From positions 1 to 46,902 of the forward strand of contig JABVCK010000011.1 in the NCBI GenBank assembly GCA_013540605.1: 46,902 nt of DNA. Reading direction: 5' to 3'. Shown piece by piece: positions 486 to 44,322 of this stretch. The stretch is from Bacillota bacterium. GTDB lineage: Bacteria; Bacillota; Clostridia; Ch29. Under the pieces are notes generated by a model. That model saw only the letters and a program-made list of their open reading frames with translations. It did no database searches and was not told the DNA's origin. The translations under genes and the position numbers were made by a program. Numbering within the stretch: position 1 is the stretch's first letter; every line of letters starts with the position of its first letter.

Positions 486-570
486 GGACAAAGGGACAGG
501 TACCTTGTCCCACCCGTTGCCCCCGGGGCATGGGACAGGGACTTGTCTAATCAAAAGGGGACATTCCGCG
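486..570. repeat. GGGACA/TGTCCC palindromic repeat cluster
   Basis: Several short GGGACA and TGTCCC blocks occur here, including the hairpin GGGACA-GGTACCT-TGTCCC around 493-512. A 22-nt string at 546-567 is repeated exactly at 34002-34023. A related GGGGACA...TGTCCCC palindrome lies at 27460-27506. This looks like a dispersed intergenic repeat family. Confidence 0.6.
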
Positions 571-573
571 GCT

Positions 574-686
574 CAGTTTCTAGTTCACAGATCACAGATC
601 ACAGTTACCAGAGTAAGGCTTACAGGTTTTTCCCATAAGCACTTCCCTGACGTCTGTCATCTGTTAACTGTTAACTGGCAACTGAT
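574..686. repeat. Degenerate heptamer dyad element, copy A
   Basis: The left arm consists of 7-bp units beginning CAG or TAG (CAGTTTC, TAGTTCA, CAGATCA twice, CAGTTAC). The right arm consists of 7-bp units beginning CTG (CTGTCAT, CTGTTAA twice, CTGGCAA). Between them lies a core with GCTTA..TAAGC pairing potential. The core string AAGCACTTCCCTGAYGTCTG is shared with copy E at about 44070. The element ends just before the Shine-Dalgarno of the hydrogenase-regulator gene. Confidence 0.8.
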
Positions 687-15982: not shown

Positions 15983-16067
15983 CAAAAATTTAAAACGCAA
16001 AATGTAGTAAATAGTTGATAAGATGGAAATCTTATTAAAGGATAATGTTGCAAAGGATGGTGAATAT

Positions 16068-16595
16068 ATGACAGAACCGCAAGCCATTAGTGTCACAGCG
16101 CCTGCAGCCGAGGATTTGCCAAAGGAAAAGTTTGATGAGCTTGAAGCCTTTATTGACAGCATGGAAACCACAAAAGGGGCATTGATTGCAATACTTCATA
16201 AAGCCCAGGATATTTTCGGATACCTTCCCAGGGATGTGCAGCTATATATAGCGAGAAAACTGGGTATTCCCGGTGCGGAGGTTTTCGGCGTGGTGAGCTT
16301 CTACTCCTACTTTACTACAAAACCCGGGGGAAAACATACTTTAAGCGTCTGCATGGGGACAGCCTGCTTTGTCAGAGGGGCGGATAAAGTTATTGAAAGG
16401 CTTAAGGAGAAACTCAACGTTGAGTCCAATGAAACAACGGAAGACGGGCTCTTTACCCTGAAAGACGTCCGTTGCATCGGGGCGTGCGGGCTTGCGCCCG
16501 TTGTCATGGTGGACGATAAGGTATATGGACGTGTAAGGGAAGAGGACGTAGACGATATTATCAGAGAATACCGCAGTCAGGAGGGACAGCAATGA
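16068..16595 (+). CDS. hndA: NADH-linked [FeFe]-hydrogenase subunit A (NuoE-like, [2Fe-2S])
   Basis: The 175-residue protein is counted from ATG 16068, preceded by AAAGGATGGTG; an upstream ATG at 16023 has no site. It is a thioredoxin-like NuoE-type [2Fe-2S] protein. A helical N-terminal part (ALIAILHKAQDIFGYLPRDVQLYIARKLGIP) precedes a cluster region with CMGTAC and CIGACGLAPV supplying the four Cys. It passes electrons between the flavin subunit and the hydrogenase chain in electron-bifurcating or NAD(P)-linked complexes. It is the first gene of a four-gene operon; its stop overlaps the next start (ATGA). Confidence 0.95.
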   Translation: MTEPQAISVTAPAAEDLPKEKFDELEAFIDSMETTKGALIAILHKAQDIFGYLPRDVQLYIARKLGIPGAEVFGVVSFYSYFTTKPGGKHTLSVCMGTACFVRGADKVIERLKEKLNVESNETTEDGLFTLKDVRCIGACGLAPVVMVDDKVYGRVREEDVDDIIREYRSQEGQQ

Positions 16596-16984
16596 CGGTA
16601 AAAACTCTGGATGAGTTGAGAAAGATAAGGGAGGAACATCTGGATAGGGTTCGTTTGAGGGAAGACGGGGAGGCAGCCGGAGACAAAATCGAGGTGCTGG
16701 TTGGGATGTCCACCTGCGGCATTGCGGCAGGGGCAAGGGAAACGGTCAACAGGTTTGTGGACTTGCTGGCAAAGGAGAGGCTGGACAGTGTCAAGGTGGT
16801 GCCTGTCGGCTGCATCGGATACTGCCATTCGGAGCCTACGGTTCAGGTGAACGTACCCGGCCAAAAGCCTGTTATTTATGGGAATGTTAAGGAAAATAAA
16901 GTTCAGGAAATCGTGGAAAAGCATATTAAAGGTGGAAAACCGGTGGAAGCGTTGATTTTGCACGTTGATTTTAAAAGACCGTAA
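16592..16984 (+). CDS. hndB: Hydrogenase subunit B ([2Fe-2S] thioredoxin-like ferredoxin)
   Basis: This 130-residue protein starts within the hndA stop (ATGA overlap). After a charged helix (LDELRKIREEHLDRVRLRED) it has a thioredoxin-like [2Fe-2S] fold with VGMSTCGIAAGA and VPVGCIGYCHSEP carrying three or four cluster Cys. The length and order match HndB of HndABCD systems. The hndC gene follows after a 148-bp gap occupied by a heptamer repeat element (copy B), which is unusual inside an operon. Confidence 0.93.
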   Translation: MTVKTLDELRKIREEHLDRVRLREDGEAAGDKIEVLVGMSTCGIAAGARETVNRFVDLLAKERLDSVKVVPVGCIGYCHSEPTVQVNVPGQKPVIYGNVKENKVQEIVEKHIKGGKPVEALILHVDFKRP

Positions 16985-16990
16985 AGAAAA

Positions 16991-17119
16991 GCTGCCGGTT
17001 GGCAGAGTAAAGTTACCAGTTGCAAGACCTCAGTTGTCAGTTATCAGTCGACAGTGGTCAACTACCAACTACGAACTGTGATCTGTAATCTGTGATCTGT
17101 GATCTGTGAACTATCAACA
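16991..17119. repeat. Degenerate heptamer dyad element, copy B (inside the hnd operon)
   Basis: The left part has CAGTTGT, CAGTTAT and CAGTCGA units. The right part has CTACCAA, CTACGAA, CTGTGAT, CTGTAAT, CTGTGAT twice and CTGTGAA units in strict 7-bp register. It fills the whole hndB-hndC gap and stops just before the AGGAGG of hndC. Confidence 0.8.
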
Positions 17120-17132
17120 GAGGAGGTTAGCC

Positions 17133-18779
17133 ATGGCAAAAGTACGTACAAATATAATGGTCTGTACCGGAACAGGCTGTTTGGCAAATGAAAGTGAAAA
17201 GGTGATTAGAAATCTGGAGGTTATCCTAAAGGCCCGGGGATACGCTGAAGAAGTGCAGGTTATAAAGACGGGGTGCTTTGGCTTTTGTGAACAGGGCCCC
17301 ATCGTTAAGATAGAACCGGATAACGTGTTTTACGTCAGGGTTAGTCCAAAGGATGCCAAGGATATAATCGATGAACATATTATAAAGGGCAGGAGAGTGG
17401 AACGGCTTTTATACGTAGAGCCAAAACAGAAAGAGAAGATCAACAGACAGGAAGATATGCCCTTTTACAAAAAGCAGCTGCGTGTCGCCCTTAGAAACTG
17501 CGGTTTGATAAACCCTGAGGATATCAATGAATACATAGCGCGGGGCGGATATGAAGCATTGGGCAGAGTCACTACCGAAATGACGAGGGACCAGGTTATA
17601 GAAGAAGTTAAAAAATCGGGCCTACGCGGGCGTGGAGGCGGAGGATTCCCCACAGGGCTGAAATGGGAGATCACTAAAAAGCAGGAAAGCGATGTGAAGT
17701 TTATTATCTGCAACGCCGATGAGGGTGATCCGGGAGCATTTATGGACAGAAGCATCCTGGAGGGCGACCCCCACAGCGTATTGGAAGCGATGGCCATCGG
17801 AGGATATGCCATCGGCGCCGACAAAGGGATAATATACATCCGCGCCGAGTACCCCCTTGCCATATCCAGGCTGAATACTGCATTGAAACAGGCGAGGGAG
17901 CTTGGATTGCTGGGCAAGAATATCTTCGGAACGAATTTCAGTTTTGACATAGATCTGAAGTATGGAGCCGGCGCCTTCGTATGCGGGGAGGAAACTGCCC
18001 TCATCAATTCATGCGAAGGAAAGCGGGGGGAACCGAACTACAAGCCGCCCTATCCGGCGGAAGAAGGGTATTGGGGGCATCCGACCTGTGTGAATAATGT
18101 TGAAACCTTTGCAAATATCACCCCCATTATTATGAGGGGGGCGGAATGGTTCGCGTCCATGGGAACCGAAAAAAGCAAAGGGACAAAGGTATTTGCCCTT
18201 GCCGGAAAGATCAACAATGTAGGCCTTGTGGAAGTACCCATGGGCATTACGCTGCGTGAGATCATTTTTGATATCGGCGGAGGGATTCCCAACGGCAAAA
18301 AGTTCAAGGCGGTACAGACCGGAGGACCATCGGGGGGAGTTATTACCGAAGAGGGCCTGGACACACCGATTGATTATGAGAGTCTGCTGGAGAGAGGGTC
18401 CATGATGGGTTCCGGGGGCATGATCGTAATGGATGAAGACGACAACATGGTAAATATCGCGAAATTCTATCTTGAGTTTACCATGGATGAAGCCTGTGGA
18501 AGATGCGTGCCAGGACGGATCGGCACCAGAAGGATATTTGAAATACTTCAGAAAATAACCGATGGCAAAGCTACCATGGCGGATCTGGACGCATTGAAAC
18601 AGCTGGCCTATATGGTGAAGGACAGTTCCTTATGCGGCCTGTGTCAAACTGCTCCGAATCCGGTTATAAGTACGATGAAATATTTCTGGGATGAGTATTT
18701 GGCTTTTATCAAAGATGTAGACCATCCCCGGGGAGAAGGAAAATACACAGCTGAGAACAAGGCAGAAATTAAATCTTAA
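17133..18779 (+). CDS. hndC: Hydrogenase subunit C (NuoF-like NADH/FMN subunit)
   Basis: The protein has 548 residues from ATG 17133 after AGAGGAGG. Residues 1-100 form a [2Fe-2S] thioredoxin-like domain (CTGTGCLANES, KTGCFGFCEQGP). The middle is NuoF-like, with the glycine-rich FMN/NADH motifs GLRGRGGGGFPTGLKWE and CNADEGDPGAFMDR, plus GAGAFVCGEETAL. The C-terminal 4Fe-4S motif is CGRCVPGRIGTRR with the later CGLCQ. The last 2x4Fe-4S ferredoxin extension seen in some homologues is absent. It oxidises or reduces NAD(P)H and exchanges electrons with the other subunits. It is 19 bp upstream of hndD. Confidence 0.96.
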   Translation: MAKVRTNIMVCTGTGCLANESEKVIRNLEVILKARGYAEEVQVIKTGCFGFCEQGPIVKIEPDNVFYVRVSPKDAKDIIDEHIIKGRRVERLLYVEPKQKEKINRQEDMPFYKKQLRVALRNCGLINPEDINEYIARGGYEALGRVTTEMTRDQVIEEVKKSGLRGRGGGGFPTGLKWEITKKQESDVKFIICNADEGDPGAFMDRSILEGDPHSVLEAMAIGGYAIGADKGIIYIRAEYPLAISRLNTALKQARELGLLGKNIFGTNFSFDIDLKYGAGAFVCGEETALINSCEGKRGEPNYKPPYPAEEGYWGHPTCVNNVETFANITPIIMRGAEWFASMGTEKSKGTKVFALAGKINNVGLVEVPMGITLREIIFDIGGGIPNGKKFKAVQTGGPSGGVITEEGLDTPIDYESLLERGSMMGSGGMIVMDEDDNMVNIAKFYLEFTMDEACGRCVPGRIGTRRIFEILQKITDGKATMADLDALKQLAYMVKDSSLCGLCQTAPNPVISTMKYFWDEYLAFIKDVDHPRGEGKYTAENKAEIKS

Positions 18780-18798
18780 TAAAAAGCGAGGAGAAAGA

Positions 18799-20577
18799 AT
18801 GGCTGAAAATCAAAAACAGGATCAGGATAGAAAGATGCTTCGGATAAGAATCAACGATCAGGACCTGACTGTGCCTGAGGGAATAACTATTTTAGAGGCG
18901 GCCCACGGGATAGGTGTAAAGATCCCGACTTTATGCCATCTGGACCTTCACGATCTGCAGCTGCATAATAAAACAGCTTCCTGCAGAGTGTGTATGGTGG
19001 AGGTAGGTGACGCCATAAGGAATAAGCTGGTCCCGGCCTGTGTGACGAAGGCCTATGATGGGATGGTTGTCCGCACGGATACACTTCGGGCGATTACCGC
19101 AAGAAGAATGGCTGTAGAGCTTCTTCTGTCAAACCATCCCAACGAATGCTTCACCTGCCCCAAAAATCTGGAGTGTGAGCTTCAAGCCCTGGCCGATGAG
19201 CTTAATGTAAGAGAAATCCGGTGGGAAGGGGAAAGGATGGACTACCCCAAGGATTTATCCAGTGATGCCATCGTTAAGGATTCAAACAAATGTATCTACT
19301 GCAGGCGCTGCGAAACAGCGTGCAATGTGGTACAGACCTGCGGCATATTATCCGGCATCGGGCGGGGCTTTGACGCCTTTGTAGGCCCGTTCTTCAATAT
19401 TCCCATGGTAGAAACATCCTGCACCTACTGCGGCCAGTGCGTGCAGGTGTGCCCCACAGCCGCCCTTACAGAGGCGTATCATGTGGACAAAGTATGGGAG
19501 GCATTGAACGATCCGGATAAGCATGTCGTCGTCCAGACGGCTCCTGCCATTCGCGTGGCGTTGGGCGAGCTTTTCGGGATGGAGCCGGGAACAATTGTAA
19601 CGGGGAAAATGGTAACAGCGTTGAAACGCATGGGGTTTGACGCCGTGTTTGATACGGATTTCGGCGCCGACCTTACAATTATGGAGGAAGCGGCCGAGCT
19701 GATCTACAGAATTAAAAATAATAAAACGCTGCCGATACTGACAAACTGCTGCCCCGCCTGGGTCAAATTTATAGAGCATCAATTTCCGGAATTGCTCCAC
19801 GTTCCGTCCACCTGCAAATCACCGCATATTATGTTCGGAACCATCGCCAAGACCTATTATGCCGAGAAAAAAGGGCTGGATCCCGATAACATCGTTGTGG
19901 TATCAGTCATGCCCTGTATCGCAAAAAAGGCGGAGGCAAAAAGGCCGGAGCTTACCAAGGATGAGAATAATAATGTGGATATCGTCATCACCACAAGGGA
20001 ATTGGGAGCAATGGTCAAAGAGGCGGGCATAGAGTTCGACAGGCTGCCGGACAGCGAATTTGACAGGCCGCTTGGAGAAGCCACCGGCGCATCGGTCATA
20101 TTCGGGACCGCCGGCGGTGTTATCGAGGCGGCAGTACGTACAGCCTATGAGTGGATGACGGGTGAAACCCTTGAAAACGTTGAATTTGAGCAATTAAGGG
20201 GGATGGAAGGGGTTAGAAAAGCGGCTGTCAGAATAGGCGACCAGGAGCTTAAGATCGGTATTGCCAGCGGATTGGGCAATGCCCGCGTTATTCTTGAGGA
20301 GATCAGGGAAGGAAAGGCGGATTATCATGCAATAGAGATCATGGCCTGTCCCGGCGGCTGCATCGGAGGGGGAGGACAGCCTTACCACCATGGCAACGAT
20401 GAGATAATTAAAAAACGCAGAGAAGCTATTTACCAGGAGGATAGAAGAAAGAAAATAAGGAAATCCCATGAGAACCCTGAAATACTGGAATTGTATAGGA
20501 AATATCTGGGCGAACCATTCGGGGAAAAGGCTCATCAGCTCCTTCATACCCATTTTGAAAAACGGGAAAGGATTTAA
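18799..20577 (+). CDS. hndD: [FeFe]-hydrogenase catalytic subunit (group A, NADH-linked)
   Basis: This 592-residue catalytic subunit carries all expected clusters. An N-terminal [2Fe-2S] uses C46, C62, C65 and C81. A His-Cys3 [4Fe-4S] uses H113, C117, C120 and C126. Two ferredoxin clusters use C165-C175 and C208-C218. The H-cluster ligands are C318, C373, C517 and C521 in TNCCPAW, MPCIAKKAEA and MACPGGCIGGGGQP. By alignment with the C. pasteurianum enzyme (offset 18) the proton-path residues C317, E297, E300 and S337 are present, but the Ser before the Cys pair is Asn316. It makes or consumes H2. No signal peptide is present, so it is cytoplasmic. Maturases HydEFG are not in the window. Confidence 0.97.
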   Translation: MAENQKQDQDRKMLRIRINDQDLTVPEGITILEAAHGIGVKIPTLCHLDLHDLQLHNKTASCRVCMVEVGDAIRNKLVPACVTKAYDGMVVRTDTLRAITARRMAVELLLSNHPNECFTCPKNLECELQALADELNVREIRWEGERMDYPKDLSSDAIVKDSNKCIYCRRCETACNVVQTCGILSGIGRGFDAFVGPFFNIPMVETSCTYCGQCVQVCPTAALTEAYHVDKVWEALNDPDKHVVVQTAPAIRVALGELFGMEPGTIVTGKMVTALKRMGFDAVFDTDFGADLTIMEEAAELIYRIKNNKTLPILTNCCPAWVKFIEHQFPELLHVPSTCKSPHIMFGTIAKTYYAEKKGLDPDNIVVVSVMPCIAKKAEAKRPELTKDENNNVDIVITTRELGAMVKEAGIEFDRLPDSEFDRPLGEATGASVIFGTAGGVIEAAVRTAYEWMTGETLENVEFEQLRGMEGVRKAAVRIGDQELKIGIASGLGNARVILEEIREGKADYHAIEIMACPGGCIGGGGQPYHHGNDEIIKKRREAIYQEDRRKKIRKSHENPEILELYRKYLGEPFGEKAHQLLHTHFEKRERI

Positions 20578-32298: not shown

Positions 32299-32473
32299 CA
32301 GTGACCAGATGACAGTTCCCAGATATCAGTTGTCAGTTCCCGGCTGCCAAAATGAAGACTCCAGAGACCTACCTTGGCGTCTGTGAACTGTGAACTGTGA
32401 TCTAGGATCTAAGATCTAGTACCTGCGATCTGCGATCTGCCGACTGCGATCTGATCTTGTACCTGCGACCTGT
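32299..32473. repeat. Degenerate heptamer dyad element, copy C
   Basis: Left CAG-type units (CAGTGAC, CAGATGA, CAGTTCC, CAGATAT, CAGTTGT, CAGTTCC) lead to a core. A right half of 7-bp CTG/CTA units follows (CTGTGAA twice, CTGTGAT, CTAGGAT, CTAAGAT, CTAGTAC, CTGCGAT twice, CTGCCGA, CTGCGAT). The right-half start is nearly identical to copy D over about 27 nt. It separates the IclR gene from the carrier gene. Confidence 0.8.
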
Positions 32474-39980: not shown

Positions 39981-40151
39981 CAGTTTTCAGTTTTCAGTTA
40001 TCAGATGACAGATGACAGACGTCAGGGCAATGCTATAGGGTAAAACCCAAAGGCCTGGTCCGGCGCCTGTGAACTGTGAACTGTGATCTGCGATCTGTGA
40101 TCTGTGATCTACCAACTACGAACTACGAACTAGCACCTGTACCTAGCACCT
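39981..40151. repeat. Degenerate heptamer dyad element, copy D
   Basis: The left half has CAGTTTT twice, CAGTTAT, CAGATGA twice and CAGACGT. A core contains GGGT..ACCC pairing potential. The right half has CTGTGAA twice, CTGTGAT, CTGCGAT, CTGTGAT twice, CTACCAA, CTACGAA twice, CTAGCAC and CTGTACC. The register is exactly 7 bp. It lies between the dehydrogenase and racemase genes of the minus-strand operon. Confidence 0.85.
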
Positions 40152-40159
40152 GGTAACTT

Positions 40160-43679: not shown

Positions 43680-43898
43680 AATTTCAGTTATATAAAATCG
43701 CACGCAAAATTTATGCCATCTTTAAACCCTCCGGCGTGTTAATGAGAAATCTGCTGAACCCATGTAAATTCAAGCCCTTTCACGATGCTTATGAATTTGC
43801 CCGGCAGCAGTGCGCCGAGGTTCCTGTTTATAATGTGAACAACTAAAGCAATAACGTTTAAATTTCATACAAATACATTTGGAATAATATACAAAGTA
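43680..43898. other. AT-rich non-coding region upstream of the minus-strand operon
   Basis: No convincing gene is seen here. The minus-strand promoter of the dehydrogenase operon should lie between 43670 and 43890; no consensus -35/-10 pair is clear. The region has been scanned on both strands. Confidence 0.4.
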
Positions 43899-44193
43899 GA
43901 TCGCAGTCGGCAGATCGCAGGCACAATAGCTCAGTTTTTAGTTCCCAGTTCTCAGTTCCCAGATTACAGTTCGTAGTTCACGGACACAGGTGCAATAATT
44001 CAGTTCTTAGTTATCAGTTAACAGATCACAGGTATCAGGGTTATGCTTTTGGGTTTTTGCCCAATAAGCACTTCCCTGATGTCTGACAACTGATAACTAG
44101 CAACTGGTAACTGGTACTATGCTTTACCCCATACACTGACAACTGGCATCTGACAGCTGATTTCTGACGTCTGTCATCTGATAACTGATAACT
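43899..44193. repeat. Degenerate heptamer dyad element, copy E (longest)
   Basis: Many CAG-type units occupy the left (CAGTTCT, CAGTTCC, CAGATTA, CAGTTCG, CAGTTAA, CAGATCA, CAGGTAT). The core contains TGCTT..AAGCA and GGG..CCC pairing and the string AAGCACTTCCCTGAYGTCTG shared with copy A. CTG-type units occupy the right (CTGATGT, CTGACAA, CTGATAA, CTAGCAA, CTGGTAA, CTGGTAC, then CTGACAA, CTGGCAT, CTGACAG, CTGATTT, CTGACGT, CTGTCAT, CTGATAA twice). It is about twice the length of the other copies. Confidence 0.85.
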
Positions 44194-44322
44194 ATAGTAT
44201 ATCAGTTTGTGATTGAGAATCACAGGTGCATTCCGGCATTTCTTGATTTCGTGCCATGCCGGTTGTATAATTTAATGGAATTAGCCATTGCATTCAATAA
44301 ACAGGCTGAGGGGGGAGATGAA

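Follow-up and report, generated by a model that had tools for sequence, protein, structure and literature searches.

In the hydrogenase operon studied here, the gap between hndB and hndC holds one copy of an inverted heptamer element that is dispersed through the genome. This copy is best explained as an insertion between genes that was tolerated and whose effects on the mRNA are weak at most, a reading to which we attach a probability of roughly 0.7. That it landed in a hydrogenase operon is most likely a matter of chance. The window, i.e. the whole stretch of 46,902 nucleotides that was analysed, contains the following features, numbered from its first letter.

572..684, no strand assigned: family copy with a core (core on the minus strand), with GGGGACATTCC just before it (HMM/CM)
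16023..16595, plus strand: hndA (NuoE/HoxE-like), NCBIfam hmmscan, below the curated cut-off
16592..16984, plus strand: hndB (2Fe-2S ferredoxin-like), NCBIfam hmmscan, below the cut-off; stops 148 bp 5' of hndC
16992..17005, plus strand: small hairpin CTGCC-GGTT-GGCAG at the left edge of the insertion (sequence)
16998..17056, plus strand: left heptamer arm of YAGWT-type units (CAGTTGT CAGTTAT), heptamer HMM, 43 bits
17057..17118, plus strand: right heptamer arm of AWCTR-type units (CTGTGAT), heptamer HMM, 67 bits
17120..17126, plus strand: hndC Shine-Dalgarno sequence GAGGAGG, directly 3' of the element (sequence)
17133..18779, plus strand: hndC (NuoF-like), TIGR01959 at 477.9 bits, below the cut-off of 558.65
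18799..20577, plus strand: hndD (group A6 [FeFe] hydrogenase), NF040763 at 893.9 bits, above the cut-off of 765
32299..32473, no strand assigned: family copy with a divergent core, orientation ambiguous (HMM/CM)
39981..40158, no strand assigned: family copy with a core (core on the plus strand) (HMM/CM)
43896..44195, no strand assigned: family copy with a core (core on the minus strand), the longest in the window (HMM/CM)

Judged from sequence, the gene set at 16023-20577 fits an HndABCD-type hydrogenase operon; the subunit names hndA to hndD follow family resemblance and position, and only hndD scores above its curated cut-off. The initial annotation had described the 148-bp gap (hndB ends at 16984, hndC starts at 17133) as filled by a heptamer copy that ends just before the hndC Shine-Dalgarno sequence, and both statements are borne out. 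The heptamer HMM places the array at 16998-17118, with a left arm of 59 nt, a right arm of 62 nt and no core, TRF independently finds a period of 7 in the gap, and GAGGAGG begins at 17120. In consensus, the right arm is approximately the reverse complement of the left arm. The CM designated R1 matches the copy at 17029-17110 with 45.3 bits on the plus strand and at 17027-17101 with 33.2 bits on the minus strand. The array lies 13 nt from the hndB stop and 14 nt from the hndC start, distances typical for the family, and it would be transcribed provided that hndABCD is a single transcript.

The copy belongs to a large family. With the hnd copy as query, BLAST returned at least 47 genome matches, 40 candidates having been scored out of 156 at first look, and the pattern of three CTGTGAN units, with one mismatch allowed, gave 93 genome matches (53 forward, 40 reverse) against 1 for the reversed control. 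Using an HMM trained on the family and run on both strands, 71 arrays of 25-338 bp were found in 258,883 bp around the matches. In an equal amount of sequence (258,883 bp) shuffled locally over 60 bp, the same HMM found 0 clusters, and a chance origin of the arrays was rejected. Inverted, two-armed arrays make up 63 of the 71 and one-armed arrays the other 8; all 63 two-armed copies run from a left YAGWT arm to a right AWCTR arm. For loci picked by the pattern this fixed order is not an artefact, since the pattern was equally able to pick the opposite order, while loci picked by BLAST are biased towards the arm order of the query. A core of 22-64 nt separates the arms in 39 of the 63 two-armed copies; the other 24, including the hnd copy, have none. 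Alignment A1 holds 29 of the 39 cored copies (the 10 omitted have divergent or unusual cores), and across these 29 the core is well conserved, with a mean column identity of 72%. The unit consensus CT[GA]NBAW is degenerate, CT alone being near invariant. A CM built from A1 matched at least 72 places in the genome, 38 at known arrays and 34 elsewhere, so that the family occupies at least 105 places (71 arrays plus 34 further CM matches).

None of the 71 arrays lies inside a gene predicted with a simple hexamer model, although a few nucleotides, up to 25, of some arrays reach into a gene end. The copies sit between many unrelated gene pairs. Genes were called on either side of 66 arrays, of which 48 are in codirectional, 10 in divergent and 8 in convergent gaps; since 178 of all 225 gaps in the same stretches (element-bearing ones included) are codirectional, operon-type gaps are not preferred. 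Of the 48 codirectional copies, 22 lie within 40 nt of the preceding stop as well as of the following start, and 17 end 10-17 nt 5' of the start, i.e. just before the usual Shine-Dalgarno sequence. This placement is sufficiently explained by keeping both genes and the Shine-Dalgarno sequence intact. The orientation of the core relative to transcription is mixed, with 14 sense and 10 antisense among the 24 codirectional copies in which it is clear.

The hndB-hndC gap was then compared across related genomes. HndC was searched in 60 genomes, the own genome included and no other of the same genus, and 48 had a match at E <= 1e-100; 30 HndC loci were taken for comparison, one being the own locus and 29 those of relatives. 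Upstream of hndC, hndB was found in 26 of the 29 relatives' loci and in none of the other 3. The gap in these 26 is 13-119 bp, with a median of 28, and in two paralogous hnd operons of the same genome (contig C11) it is 29 bp, confirming that hndB and hndC normally lie close together. Two of the 26 gaps are also long (102 and 119 bp), without heptamers. The heptamer HMM found no arrays in the 29 relatives' hnd loci (132,503 bp), so within this sample the extra length together with the heptamers is private to the present operon. As the relatives' gaps are mostly short and free of heptamers and those of the two paralogues are short, the hnd copy looks like a lineage-specific insertion, and "inserted" is a well supported description of it on this sequence comparison. 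On contig C11, locus L075 (G000:C11:94000-103000) carries another hnd-type operon in tandem duplicate (85% identity, ungapped, over 3.5 kb), with a cored heptamer element directly 3' of the first copy.

Elements also split rpsB-tsf and rimP-nusA; these names, like purH-purD, are those we take the genes to bear from their protein sequences. The rpsB-tsf gap is 190 bp here, while the same-family genomes G001 to G005 have 72, 57, 61, 55 and 60 bp, respectively. By eye, a short GGTNAGGG/CCCTNACC-type hairpin 3' of rpsB is common to all six same-family genomes, and the element is placed between this hairpin and the tsf Shine-Dalgarno sequence. Where it could be measured, in 28 of 29 relatives (the remaining locus lacked rpsB), the rpsB-tsf gap has a median of 60.5 bp and a maximum of 285. 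The rimP-nusA gap is 116 bp here versus 17 bp in G002 to G005, G001 having 133 bp without heptamers; the 29 relatives compared have a median of 20 bp and a maximum of 233. The heptamer HMM found no arrays in the relatives' rpsB-tsf and rimP-nusA gaps, and the sole array that it found in these loci lies elsewhere, in L228.

Two other sites bear on the age of the copies. At C8:27711 an element lies directly 5' of a T-box leader, and in G003 an element lies 3' of the matching T-box (Rfam places the matching leaders of the two genera at L073 1922-2325 and L093 1464-1867); positions on opposite sides of a matching T-box point to separate insertions. The two genes that enclose the copy at C11:35510 also enclose one in G001, and the flanks agree at 81-83% in the main tblastx pieces. 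By eye the left boundary is shared, and the array is 220 bp here versus 122 bp in G001. A shared site with unequal lengths indicates that some copies are old or the site recurrent, and that arrays change length.

The initial annotation had further predicted a large hairpin in the mRNA, and this point has to be qualified. The array alone (16998-17118) folds with z = -2.13 (40 shuffles), whereas the whole gap (16985-17125), at -35.2 kcal/mol, folds no better than its shuffles (z = -0.33; equalled or surpassed by 77 of 200 dinucleotide shuffles). Over the 63 two-armed copies the mean fold z is -2.25, with 30 of 63 below -2 relative to dinucleotide shuffles, and random stretches of the same fetched sequence have a mean of -0.98. 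The 30 copies below -2 indicate that some hairpin-forming tendency is real, and many of the hairpins are above average.

Co-adaptation of the arms was rejected. In the 48 of 63 elements with arms of at least 35 nt, own arms compared with a unit-shuffled right arm gave a mean z of +0.12 (SE 0.11), and own arms paired worse than with the right arms of other elements (mean z +0.59); the better pairing with foreign arms is read as a consequence of the arms being two different sequences in two orientations. A covarying core was rejected as well: the RNAalifold covariation term in the A1 core is only -0.21 kcal/mol, 2 of 16 pairs changed on both sides, and a column-pair scan of the aligned core gave few varied pairs. 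Neither the arms nor the core gave any hint that the stem is under selection. The element matches no known structured RNA in Rfam 15. Above the gathering score the window contains only a cobalamin riboswitch and tRNA, with no match at the hnd element, and six further loci contain only T-boxes and tRNA.

The mechanism that we propose would begin with an element of degenerate heptamers, YAGWTNN units in the left arm and AWCTRNN units in the right arm, the arms either abutting or separated by a core of about 35 nt. Within the present lineage such an element would have inserted between hndB and the hndC Shine-Dalgarno sequence, where insertion would cost little because both genes and the ribosome-binding site are intact. 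Copies would have spread by some kind of DNA-level copying, and the length of each would then have changed in unit steps. In the mRNA the copy may act as, at most, a weak spacer or stem-loop that loosens the coupling of hndB and hndC, an effect probably not itself selected. Against this reading stand the occupation of the C11:35510 site in another genus, which may reflect functional retention or an old insertion, the good conservation of the core, and the real hairpin-forming tendency seen in the 30 of 63 copies.

It is unlikely that the copy is instead a classical MITE, i.e. an element derived from a transposon, bounded by defined terminal repeats and mobilised by a transposase whose gene lies at another place in the genome. 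The copy number, intergenic location and inverted layout agree with a MITE, as do the heptamer-free sites of relatives at hndBC, rpsB-tsf and rimP-nusA and the presence of Y1 transposase genes in the genome (6 matches). However, no sharp end consensus or defined terminal repeats were found at the 125 of 126 element ends examined, and since no discrete ends were seen, a transposition-like step stays a proposal for the tolerated insertion as well. In addition, a GGGGACA/TGTCCCC motif lies within 60 nt of only 24 of the 71 elements, on both sides of 6, and is absent at the hnd copy. A second dispersed repeat, GGGGACATTCC, which we take to be a REP-like family, has 153 exact genome copies (87 forward, 66 reverse; reversed control 4), is often clustered in the genome and occurs at window positions 557-567. 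GGGGACATTCC and the Y1 transposases present here are reminiscent of REP/RAYT systems, but the heptamer sequence is different, and REP/RAYT was rejected as the mover of the heptamers because the motif is near 24 of 71 elements only and absent at the hnd copy.

A bolder picture, which we regard as quite unlikely, treats the heptamer ladder as a self-copying palindromic DNA element with neither defined ends nor a dedicated transposase. Each heptamer would keep a five-pair rung (AWCTR/YAGWT) while two positions drift, the hairpin would survive rearrangement and length change, and rpsB-tsf, rimP-nusA and hndB-hndC would be among the conserved gene pairs split by it.

The initial annotation suggested another role, in which the copy could set subunit ratios by processing or partial termination. 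As a selected intra-operon control element, it would be a transcribed stem-loop that is cut, or that causes pausing or termination, leading to unequal hndAB and hndCD. The position inside the operon, with the end just 5' of the Shine-Dalgarno sequence, favours such control, and this sequence is predicted to be less accessible with the element (probability unpaired 0.26) than without it (0.43), a small effect from one fold model. Precedents exist in ERIC of Yersinia and NEMIS of Neisseria, whose intergenic stem-loops are reported or proposed to be cut in mRNA (PMC2229807). Yet the whole-gap fold is no better than that of shuffles and the arms are not co-adapted. Between 16900 and 17200 no terminator was found on the coding strand and no T-run follows the stem; the sole terminator-like site there is on the minus strand, at the small hairpin 16992..17005. 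A coding-strand intrinsic terminator or attenuator, requiring a GC-rich stem with a T-run, was rejected accordingly. The mixed core orientation, the at least 105 copies, many between unrelated genes, and the related hnd operons examined, which have no element, argue in the same direction. Selected control is therefore decidedly unlikely; control of subunit ratios by the hnd copy is possible, with no support beyond position. The initial reading thus stands as far as a dispersed element inside the operon is concerned, and not in its regulatory part.

For the hnd hydrogenase, the tolerated insertion carries a caution, namely that an insert of this kind is not to be read as a dedicated regulator. 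More broadly, the family illustrates the extent to which intergenic gaps, those of conserved operons too, can be occupied by a small inverted heptamer repeat that spares gene interiors. The rpsB-tsf, rimP-nusA and hndBC gaps provide natural paired sites with and without heptamers, in which the effects of inserts on operon output could be measured.

Purely local growth, in which the hnd array arose by replication slippage of a chance heptamer and shares no descent with the other copies, is very unlikely. The variation in array length (25-338 bp), the length difference between two genera at one shared site and the lack of a core in the hnd copy would fit it. However, slippage alone would give direct repeats and not the YAGWT-then-AWCTR order of 63/63 copies, an alignable core is common to 29 copies, and the hnd copy itself matches the cored-copy CM at 45.3 bits, a score to which heptamers alone contribute.

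A binding-site array for an RNA- or DNA-binding protein acting on many genes at once, as also proposed for TAACTGA repeats (MacGregor 2015, PMC4679880), is highly improbable: downstream-start distances do pile up at 10-17 nt (17/48 tandem cases), but the requirement for an intact Shine-Dalgarno sequence accounts for the same spacing, the units are degenerate with only CT near invariant, convergent gaps are used (8/66) and both orientations occur.

Among known systems there is precedent for a heptamer array between genes of a hydrogenase: heptamer repeats able to form hairpins have been reported between cyanobacterial hupS and hupL, with suggested roles in transcript stability or translational coupling (PMC2670836). 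The STRR of filamentous cyanobacteria are described there as usually 7-bp tandem units, intergenic and located between hydrogenase subunit genes (PMC2670836), and the present family is likewise tandem with period 7, intergenic (0/71 inside genes) and present in many copies (71 arrays). Unlike STRR, the units here are degenerate and the two-armed copies are always inverted in the order YAGWT-(core)-AWCTR; the hydrogenase is of the [FeFe] kind here versus [NiFe] beside STRR, and having an [FeFe] enzyme makes a cyanobacterial source of the present genome unlikely. In Nostoc PCC 7120 a TCAGTTG-type repeat, the heptamer type of part of the left arm here, adjoins hupS and is given 44 genome appearances and the description "no hairpin" in PMC2408588.

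TAACTGA direct repeats are reported from Beggiatoaceae, some Cyanobacteria and Bacteroidetes and are mostly intergenic, in BOGUAY mostly just 5' of start codons; they were proposed as sites for an RNA- or DNA-binding protein in Beggiatoaceae (MacGregor 2015, PMC4679880). The word "Firmicutes" is absent from the main text on these repeats (PMC4679880). The heptamers have related letters, TCAGTTA being the reverse complement of TAACTGA, but the BOGUAY repeats are described as 2-6 exact copies in direct orientation, inverted in just one instance (PMC4679880), unlike the degenerate arrays of 25-338 bp seen here, of which 63/71 are inverted and 39/63 of the two-armed have a core. Exact TAACTGA direct repeats thus do not describe this family, whose consensus is CT[GA]NBAW, and placement before start codons is seen in the 17/48 tandem copies, with convergent gaps occupied too. 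ERIC, NEMIS/Correia and RUP are about 100-155 bp, numerous and mostly intergenic, and some small palindromic repeats of this group are transcribed with their neighbours and form stem-loops; they are described as elements of one sequence each, some of which carry terminal repeats and TA target sites (PMC2229807), whereas the element here consists of heptamer units and lacks clear ends. An earlier description of this inverted heptamer element was not found in the searched parts of a mainly open-access literature, and it is in the fixed inverted layout and the core that the family differs from known heptamer repeats.

The pattern of three CTGTGAN units matched in 5 of 60 genomes (G000, the own genome, and G002, G003, G004 and G059). 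With stricter filters than in the own genome, the CM gave 3 matches in G001, 8 in G003, 23 in G059 and 1 in G044, and none in the remaining 55 of the 59 other genomes. An HMM scan covered 21 loci of relatives, several of them representing the same place; 9 are two-armed, all in the YAGWT-then-AWCTR order, and 12 one-armed. In G059, which belongs to another family of the same class, the 4 loci scanned are two-armed in the same order with 18-20 nt between the arms, and its elements are, on this resemblance, perhaps a sister family.

A pattern scan of named genomes, from which the own genome was possibly left out, gave at least 116 stretches in many phyla. Among the 116 stretches listed, both arms occur in one cluster at 11 loci (7 in the same order, 4 in the opposite), and HMM-detected heptamer arrays at other loci are one-sided. 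CM R1, run on 44 of the 116, gave 23 matches at E up to 0.01, the best among these 44 reaching 46.9 bits on the Gemmatimonadetes contig L215. The inverted arrays in other phyla (L215, L136, L123, L144 and L183) are weak CM matches, with best scores of 32-47 bits, and are possibly convergent.

Elsewhere in the window, a gene at 703-957 with a TM1266-like domain ("iron-only hydrogenase system regulator, putative"), on the same contig as the hnd operon, starts 18 nt past a heptamer element, and the cobalamin riboswitch at 1553-1732 lies upstream of a gene at 1818.
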